DNA from: Moorena sp. SS36440bin_2
Lineage (GTDB): Bacteria > Cyanobacteriota > Cyanobacteriia > Cyanobacteriales > Coleofasciculaceae
Length of the DNA stretch: 36,175 nucleotides
Direction of reading: 5' to 3'
Assembly (NCBI GenBank): GCA_011524395.1
Contig: WTKN01000018.1
Span: forward strand, 1 to 36,175
Part shown: one piece after another, positions 35,254-36,175 of the stretch
Layout: each line of letters starts with the position of its first letter
Position numbering within the stretch: the first letter of the stretch is position 1
Made by a program: the position numbers and the translations under genes
The notes under the pieces: model-generated
The model's input: the letters and a program-made list of their open reading frames with translations, nothing else
Databases searched by the model: none
Told to the model about the DNA's origin: nothing

Positions 35254-35916
35254 ATGAACAACCAATTTCAAGCTCTATCCACCCCAAACGATTTACCTCT
35301 CCTGCGACCTTTTCTGCTGGATTTGTTTTGTCAACTGGCTTACCAAGAAGGTGATTTTGTGCTTTCGTCGGGGCAGCGTAGCTCTTATTACATCAATGGT
35401 AAACAGGTTACCCTTCATGCTCAAGGAGCATTGGCGATAGGACGTTTGCTATTGTCAATGGTACCTGCTGATACTCAAGCTGTTGCTGGCCTAACTCTGG
35501 GGGCAGATCCGATCGTGAGTGCGGTTAGCATTGTTTCTGCCTTAGAAAACCGCCCTATTCTTGATGCAGTCGCTCATGGGGGAAACCCCCAAGACCGCGC
35601 TGCATCGCTCCCTGGTCTAATTATCCGCAAACAGCCAAAAGGTCATGGAACCAGGGCATACATTGAAGGGCCTTCTTTGCCCACAGGAGCCAAAGTAGTG
35701 GTATTAGAAGACGTGGTGACTACTGGGCAATCAGCCATGAAAGCCGTGAACCGCCTTAAGGAAGCTGGTTACCAGGTAGAGCTGGTAATAGCCCTGGTTG
35801 ACCGGCTGCAAGGTGGAGCAGAGCTTTATCAGTCAGCTGGGCTAATGTTTAAAGCTCTGTTTTCGATTAACGAAATCCGAGAACACTACCAGGGTTCTCT
35901 TGATCATTCCAGTTGA
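35254..35916 (+). CDS. pyrE: Orotate phosphoribosyltransferase
   Basis: 220 residues. DFVLSSGQRSSYYINGKQVTL, AGLTLGADPIVSAVS, RKQPKGHGT and the PRPP loop VVLEDVVTTGQSAM (149-162) identify OPRT, which makes OMP from orotate and PRPP in pyrimidine synthesis. Residues 104-118 (DAVAHGGNPQDRAAS) have no counterpart in ordinary OPRTs, which run straight from the RPI(L/P) strand into LPGLIIRKQPKGHGT. They are encoded by a 44-bp palindromic dispersed repeat (35563-35606) that kept the reading frame. The catalytic loop and other motifs are intact, so the enzyme may tolerate it. Confidence 0.95.
   Translation: MNNQFQALSTPNDLPLLRPFLLDLFCQLAYQEGDFVLSSGQRSSYYINGKQVTLHAQGALAIGRLLLSMVPADTQAVAGLTLGADPIVSAVSIVSALENRPILDAVAHGGNPQDRAASLPGLIIRKQPKGHGTRAYIEGPSLPTGAKVVVLEDVVTTGQSAMKAVNRLKEAGYQVELVIALVDRLQGGAELYQSAGLMFKALFSINEIREHYQGSLDHSS
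35563..35606. repeat. 44-bp palindromic repeat inserted within pyrE
   Basis: Starts GATGCAGTCGCTCATGGGGG and ends in CCGCGCTGCATC. Outer arms GATGCAG/CTGCATC and inner GGGGG/CCCCC pair around AAA. A related copy lies at 36090-36132, sharing GCAGTCGCTCATGG and GGGGGAAACC. Confidence 0.75.
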
Positions 35917-35945: not shown

Positions 35946-36018
35946 TGGCTCAGGCGGGATTTGAACCTGCGACCTCGGGCTTATGAGTCCCTTGCTCTAA
36001 CCACTGAGCTACTGAGCC
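35946..36018 (-). tRNA. trnM: tRNA-Met (CAT), elongator type
   Basis: On the minus strand: acceptor GGCTCAG/CTGAGCC, D-arm GCTCAGTGGTTAGAGC, anticodon loop CTCATAA, variable AGGTC, T-arm GCAGG-TTCAAAT-CCCGC with the A-C mismatch also seen in some bacterial elongator tRNA-Met, and discriminator A. The anticodon stem AGGGA/GCCCG has two A-G mismatches (27-43 and 31-39), so it may be slightly decayed. It lies 30 bp beyond the pyrE stop, convergent with it. Confidence 0.85.
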
Positions 36019-36089
36019 TTTTTTTTAACCCTTATGTACTATAACATATCAATGCGAATAATTTCTCTAATAATTTTTATTCCTTTCTT

Positions 36090-36132
36090 GATGCAAAGCG
36101 CGAGTGGGGGAAACCACGGCAGTCGCTCATGG
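36090..36132. repeat. Diverged copy of the pyrE-type palindromic repeat
   Basis: Starts GATGCAAAGCGCGAGTGGGG, has GAAACC in the centre and ends GCAGTCGCTCATGG. The last 14 bases equal 35566-35579 within pyrE and GGGGGAAACC is shared too. The remaining DNA to the window end shows no gene. Confidence 0.65.
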
Positions 36133-36175
36133 TTAGAAGTTACCGTAAGACAGGCTCGCCAAAATCGGCTAAGTT

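Follow-up and report, generated by a model that had tools for sequence, protein, structure and literature searches.

Recent insertion of a 51-bp hairpin repeat, probably mobile and target-specific, into the pyrE gene of a Moorena cyanobacterium

In filamentous cyanobacteria, tiny hairpin repeats named SDRs were reportedly described by Elhai and colleagues in 2008, with units of 21–27 nt, and are said to show compensatory changes in their stems, exact insertion into short targets, nesting, and occurrence in tandem heptamers. To our knowledge, that work holds no in-frame invasion of host genes. SDR5 is given as inserted exactly in HIP1 in PMC4390886. In-frame invasion by palindromes is best known from Rickettsia, where RPEs of about 150 bp insert in frame and nearly half of the first set lie in ORFs, according to PMC10969869. 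Among REP sequences, PMC6006769 places REP copies inside tnpA-REP genes for subclass 2.4, which is abundant in Cyanobacteria and Bacteroidetes, and PMC3116915 treats REPINs and mentions SDRs. We found no description of such a repeat in Moorena among the titles and abstract starts of the open literature, with subscription papers outside this search.

The window analyzed here is a whole stretch of 36,175 nt, contig C389 of a Moorena genome (G000; 7.75 Mb, 441 contigs, 99.87% complete), and three further genomes of the genus (G001–G003) were used as a comparison set. By analogy, the hairpin family found in the window resembles the Rickettsia RPEs in effect and the cyanobacterial SDRs in kind. As reported for the SDRs, there is stem compensation, a short target, nesting, and occurrence in heptamer arrays, but the Moorena unit adds 51 or 52 bp and the units nested in it measure about 45, as compared to the 21–27 nt reported for SDRs. 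Like the RPEs, these are palindromic repeats that lie in frame in unrelated genes and add a translated peptide, whereas the Moorena unit has 51 bp, with 9 of 69 copies in long ORFs and four in frame, against about 150 bp and, in the first set, nearly half in ORFs for the RPEs. REPs and REPINs are also short, imperfect palindromes that occur dispersed across a genome; in contrast to them, the Moorena unit has no GT[AG]G or CGTC end tag and ends with TTCTTG or GTCTTG and CATCGC (one nested unit has GGTAG inside its stem). The features of the window are:

35254–35916, plus strand: pyrE (orotate phosphoribosyltransferase), a 220-aa ORF that stays open through the insertion
35554–35558, plus strand: insertion target CCTA^T, from the empty site and site statistics
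35558–35608, plus strand: inserted 51-bp hairpin element TTCTTGATGCA...TGCATCGC, the site being empty in all six congener loci
35563–35606, plus strand: imperfect palindrome with arms GATGCAG/CTGCATC and apex GGGGG-AAA-CCCCC, from its fold and two-sided changes in 7 of 19 pairs
35946–36018, minus strand: tRNA gene between pyrE and the second hairpin copy (Rfam tRNA, 64.1 bits)
36085–36132, plus strand: second, incomplete hairpin copy of a larger nested variant, non-coding, from the direct repeat GCAGTCGCTCATGG

We read the pyrE locus as the recent insertion of a non-autonomous, target-specific 51-bp mobile hairpin into a gene that is otherwise intact and presumably tolerates the copy, with a probability of about 0.86. 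In an alignment of positions 35500–35680, six of six congener loci (L032–L034, L061–L063) carry the empty site CCGCCCTA|TCCCTGG, while the window reads CCGCCCTA-TTCTTGATGCA...TGCATCGC-TCCCTGG, a net gain of 51 bp between nearly identical flanks; by sequence the six loci represent four different genomes, some being one genome in two collections. The added sequence begins TTCTTGATG and ends CATCGC, and it could equally be placed at 35559–35609, one T being common to element and target. Such differences among close relatives point to recent movement. The 51 bp at 35559–35609 (TCTTGATGCA...TGCATCGCT; TCTTG...CATCGCT) are 100% identical at no fewer than 36 other places in the genome, taken from 43 matches with 40 of 403 candidates scored, and by this sequence identity pyrE holds a pristine member of a dispersed hairpin family.

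The insertion adds 17 stop-free codons to pyrE, residues 103–119 (LDAVAHGGNPQDRAASL), which are missing from all 42 other PyrEs in an alignment of 43 sequences; these 42 were drawn from 80 loci, three of them from Moorena and 39 from outside the genus. A sequence-only reading of the window had proposed an interruption of 15 residues (104–118) that relatives outside the genus would lack. The extra residues and their absence from all 39 such relatives were borne out, whereas the true extent is 17 residues and the unit has 51 bp. That these residues are an old lineage-specific PyrE loop with a chance likeness to the repeat would fit their translation in frame, but the same 51 bp stand unchanged at the other places just counted and are absent from six congener loci with near-identical flanks; on the sequence comparison, this idea is in effect refuted by the empty sites, and we find it hardly conceivable.

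The PyrE product scores 142–144 bits against TIGR00336 (cut-off 106.8) in a profile search, and it is the only match above the cut-off in its own genome, where three others reach at most 33 bits; each of the four Moorena genomes has one match above the cut-off. Its nearest named relatives are from Moorena bouillonii PNG, Moorena sp. SIO3H5, and Moorena sp. SIO3I8. Because it is the sole OPRT above the family cut-off, the 220-aa protein with its insert presumably works, and the KGHGT and EDVVTTG segments, (near-)invariant across the 43 aligned PyrEs, are unaltered in it. AlphaFold, run with the 43-sequence alignment, gave a best model of mean pLDDT 84 (the other four were poorer, 63–75), which resembles solved OPRT structures by structure comparison. 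In this model, residues 101–116 have a pLDDT below 50 and are flanked by a helix (85–97) and a strand (121–124). With the insert, PyrE is predicted to have a loop of 17 additional residues that is absent from its closest relatives; of the 15-residue loop suggested earlier, the gain of in-frame residues holds, the length does not, and the loop itself is a prediction. The strand after the insert presumably reaches the catalytic loop at its far end, as in OPRTs in general, and therefore the modeled insert should sit away from the active site. Residues 103–119, placed between helix 85–97 and this strand, may be tolerated as a disordered loop. We claim no benefit to PyrE.

It could also be that pyrE is a fresh pseudogene killed by the insert, in a cell that imports uracil or uses another enzyme. 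The insert lies ahead of the catalytic loop and could harm folding, and the element is pristine, hence probably recent, so that decay would not be visible yet. However, the genome holds no second match above the OPRT cut-off, both conserved segments are unaltered, and in three of four Moorena genomes a GT4 glycosyltransferase gene carries in-frame copies and stays open, which together make a dead pyrE unlikely.

The 44-bp imperfect palindrome GATGCAG...CTGCATC at 35563–35606 was found just as first described. Positions 35555–35612 fold at −28 kcal/mol (z −4.9), and none of 200 shuffles folds as well. Of 67 distinct 46-mers, 29 have at least 17 of the 19 positions paired. Across 24 sequences chosen from these 29, a choice that favors the result, 94.5% of the stem cells are paired and 7 of 19 pairs are altered on both sides (25 such cells vs 5.0 in shuffles). 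The covariation score drops from 0.202 to at most 0.041 when the partners are slid by 1–3 columns, while the number of further pair types (13 vs 10.7 in shuffles, reached by 55 of 500 shuffles) is not clearly raised. At a looser cut of 15 pairs, swapped pairs are still present at positions 4-43, 5-42, 6-41, and 10-38, and roughly half of the rows lack pairs 2-45 and 3-44.

Allowing up to three mismatches, a 30-nt core of the hairpin matches the 7.75-Mb genome 140 times (81+59); 59 of these matches are exact, and 100 of the 140 are listed. The reversed core, used as a control, has none in the same genome; the unit is thus abundant elsewhere, in agreement with the dispersed repeat family proposed at the outset. 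In G002, the 24-nt 5′ half has 210 matches at up to two mismatches. Among the sampled genomes of the order, 14 of 119, G000 and G001 included, contain the core at up to two mismatches, as do 10 of 69 genera, with 1–11 copies per genome in the 12 genomes outside Moorena. The outer stems around the core in other genera are GGCA/TGCC, GCCA/TGGC, GTCA/TGAC, GCGA/TCGC, GATGTA/TACATC, and GGTGCA/TGCACC, and in one copy (L228) GCCA stands with TGAC, the outer stem being unpaired; judged from these sequences, related hairpins with re-paired stems are present in other cyanobacteria. Partial matches to the unit occur in ten cyanobacterial plasmid records, none covering more than 80% of it, and viral contigs gave no exact match to the 30-nt core. 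An Rfam search of the window, L180, L030, and L237 returned only tRNA matches, two in the window and one in L180. The small RNA Yfr1, which starts with a similar GGGGGAAACCCC hairpin in PMC2190773, was considered and dropped, as nothing else was seen to be common to the two.

A search of G001–G003 with the left flanks of 29 further copies paired 17 of them with empty sites, 14 in these genomes and three (L184, L162, L159) from further regions; some of these sites are paralogous, not orthologous (e.g., L009, L030). The rest comprise L020 and L197, which were filled only, L006, whose alignment was uninformative, and nine with no fetched match to compare. The 3′ junction at empty sites is CATCGC|T, and the target duplication at the compared sites is 0–1 bp. 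Counting distinct 10-nt left flanks only, C occupies position −3 in 59 of 66 (background 21.9%, p 2e-31) and A or T position −4 in 57 of 66. Insertion is target-specific, at (A/T)CNN^T; the pyrE target agrees at −3 (C) and 0 (T) but carries C at −4 in place of the usual A/T. Sharp single-position insertions at unrelated sites with a common target argue against a spread of the repeats by gene conversion and replication errors at palindromes, with no transposition. Such a spread would account for copies with similar flanks at the same place and different right ends (GCATCGCT or AAATCACGCT), for an apex inverted between two genomes at one site, and for the five left-arm bases by which two alleles of the GT4 gene, with inserts of 96 and 51 bp, also differ; we regard it as improbable, and favor target-specific insertion of a mobile hairpin.

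Three types of 5′ junction precede TCTTG in 79 copies: TG in 45, G after C in 16, and T in 18. Net length was scored at 18 sites of the own genome, pyrE included. At the other 17, the TG copies gain 52 bp in eleven cases, 54 bp in a longer unit, and 140 bp in a nested one, and the remaining gains are 51 bp at L002 (T), 51 bp at L030 (G after C), 96 bp at L184 (T), and 141 bp at L180 (T). With these counts, a preference of the family for frame-neutral gains was dropped. The pyrE copy has junction type T and a gain of 51 bp. The 5′ junction thus decides the gain of the plain unit, either 51 bp, which keeps the frame, or 52 bp, which breaks it. Copies inside CTCCCTR-like tandem heptamers (L010, L011, L012, L014, L019, L155, L168) have G after C and an apparent net gain of 51 bp, judged without an empty site.

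Copies avoid genes. Only 9 of 69 copies in the own genome lie in ORFs, as compared to 609 of 1042 random positions (58%) in the same loci (p 7e-15). The count covers copies flanked by 450 bp or more in each direction, and ORFs of 150 aa or longer that extend 40 aa to either side of the copy, taken as read or after removal of the unit. Four of the nine are in frame, in pyrE, a NACHT/HEAT gene (L030), the GT4 gene (L180), and an RTX-repeat ORF (L184), and five break the frame (L004, which may not be a gene, L013, L022, L025, and L162); since the frame is broken about as often as it is kept, no special frame-sparing ability shows here, and the copies found in intact genes are of the frame-keeping junction type. 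The likeness to Rickettsia RPEs drawn by the sequence-only reading therefore holds in part: in-frame insertion is real in pyrE, by its empty sites, and extends to further genes, but copies avoid genes and five of nine disrupt them.

In-frame insertion together with an empty site is found in pyrE, the GT4 gene, the NACHT gene (partly against paralogues), the RTX-repeat ORF, and a trypsin-WD40 gene of G002, in which the copy lies near the start and is absent in the other three genomes, the adjoining 18 bp also differing. An S8 peptidase gene (L197), outside the 69 owing to a short flank, carries a worn in-frame copy in all four Moorena genomes that is absent in eight of eight aligned homologues from other genera (13 found), in a stretch that varies in length. 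A 264-aa ORF of G002 (L282) has an in-frame copy in the other-strand reading that is common to G001. We did not count L281, L283, and L284, where the element is near an ORF end or a sequence gap, or L270, which has no Pfam match. At the ORF site common to G002 and G001 (L282:1255–1320 vs L291), the two genomes differ in the apex, GGGGGTTTCCCCC as against GGGGGAAACCCCC, one being inverted relative to the other.

Hairpins of about 50 nt are skipped by ribosomes in T4 gene 60 and in mitochondrial byp elements, and the Moorena hairpin, similar in size and form, might by ribosomal bypassing or mRNA removal be absent from the protein, which would then lack LDAVAHGGNPQDR; copies that add 52 bp to otherwise open genes would be harmless too. 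By eye, however, no pair of take-off and landing codons restores the R-P-I-P-G reading of the gene without the insert, and no stop codon interrupts the element in its reading frame in pyrE. We hold such skipping to be very improbable and take the pyrE insertion to be presumably translated.

In larger copies, a smaller hairpin is nested in the outer hairpin, at its loop or foot. At one site of the GT4 gene, four Moorena alleles carry inserts of 0 (G003, L251), 51 (G001, L242), 96 (G002, L240), and 141 bp (own genome, L180); all are open, with 425, 446, 461, and 476 codons, respectively, and the three filled forms have a Glycos_transf_1 match. The insert sits before IQVHTYHSLG, which we take to be a strand. 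The 96- and 141-bp forms differ by a clean 45-bp insertion, while the 51- and 96-bp forms differ by 45 bp and the five left-arm bases, so that exchange of forms is as possible there as growth. One tentative reading is that Moorena hairpins act as a stepwise inserter of protein loops, in which a 51-bp unit enters at WCNN^T where the fold turns and 45-bp units follow, giving GT4 loops of 0, 17, 32, and 47 residues. We consider this doubtful, and rated it somewhat lower because the step from 51 to 96 bp is not clean; if true, the frame-neutral sizes (51, 45, 45) would be a kept property and not luck. Other lengths in the own genome are 52, 53, 88, 95, 97, 109, 134, 139, 145, 155, and 170 bp, so multiples of three are no rule, and some of the long spans may join two neighboring elements. 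Between L162 and L164, and between L182 and L189, similar flanks hold copies at the same position with right ends GCTGCATCGCT or GCAAATCACGCT, which suggests exchange of variants.

As for the mechanism, the moving form may be a folded single strand served by enzymes in trans, because the family conserves a paired stem and the short 5′ target (A/T)CNN^T, and no target duplication exceeds 1 bp. Single-stranded DNA moved by a Y1/HUH enzyme in trans has slightly less than an even chance in our view; an RNA route is possible but clearly less probable, and other means make up the rest. The pyrE copy would have been kept because its junction type adds 3 × 17 bp and the position of the insert may tolerate a loop. 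The hairpin form, the 5′ target preference, and the lack of a long target duplication are shared with the ends of IS200/IS605 elements and with the small elements that derive from these, but none of the 14 Y1-transposase (PF01797) matches in the genome was seen with Moorena hairpins at its ends, some of these loci being cut by contig ends; the same result sets the family apart from REPs and REPINs with a RAYT. One hairpin copy lies about 275 bp from a TnpA (L205). The varying 5′ junction, with TG, G, or T before TCTTG, is not what one would readily expect from a precise transposase, and a classical MITE would duplicate 2 bp or more, in contrast to the 0–1 bp seen here.

Eight IS200/IS605 TnpA matches (L201–L208) have no internal stops, six of them with a TnpB-like ORF by eye, and L201–L214 also include several broken TnpA matches. 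Copies near the 3′ end of tnpB are found in Moorena (L167) and once on a Stanieria plasmid (AP017376.1, L319:1448–2680), where a related hairpin lies within an annotated IS605 OrfB CDS, near its 3′ end, and is in frame on the antisense strand by eye. A link to TnpB was looked for by tblastn at 1e-6 (hits at 20 of 90 own loci vs 4 hits in 109 controls), and nothing was drawn from it: the comparison is not fair, because 9 of the 20 hits are short and fall on the L167 query tail, which is the element itself, and the controls are pyrE loci, mostly of other species.

In this cyanobacterium, in-frame invasion is seen along with its empty sites, a rule for the target, a 5′ junction whose type determines the frame, and one gene with four alleles of different length. 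Two old questions, the movement of tiny repeats and the gain of loops by proteins, are thereby open to direct test, and the PyrE pair with and without the insert, together with the four natural GT4 alleles, offers material that can be expressed and assayed. Predicted Moorena proteins can include repeat-coded peptides.

The second copy in the window, first placed at 36090–36132, is real and non-coding, but it is incomplete: read by eye, it is part of the larger nested variant and breaks off into other sequence. At the corresponding place, G002 has the exact 5′ half of an ordinary copy. The stretch that follows, 36133–36175, reads TTAGAAGTTACCGTAAGACAGGCTCGCC and runs to the contig end at 36175; similar LEVTVRQ-like readings also adjoin other hairpin copies, so by sequence another repeat may be joined to the second copy after 36132.
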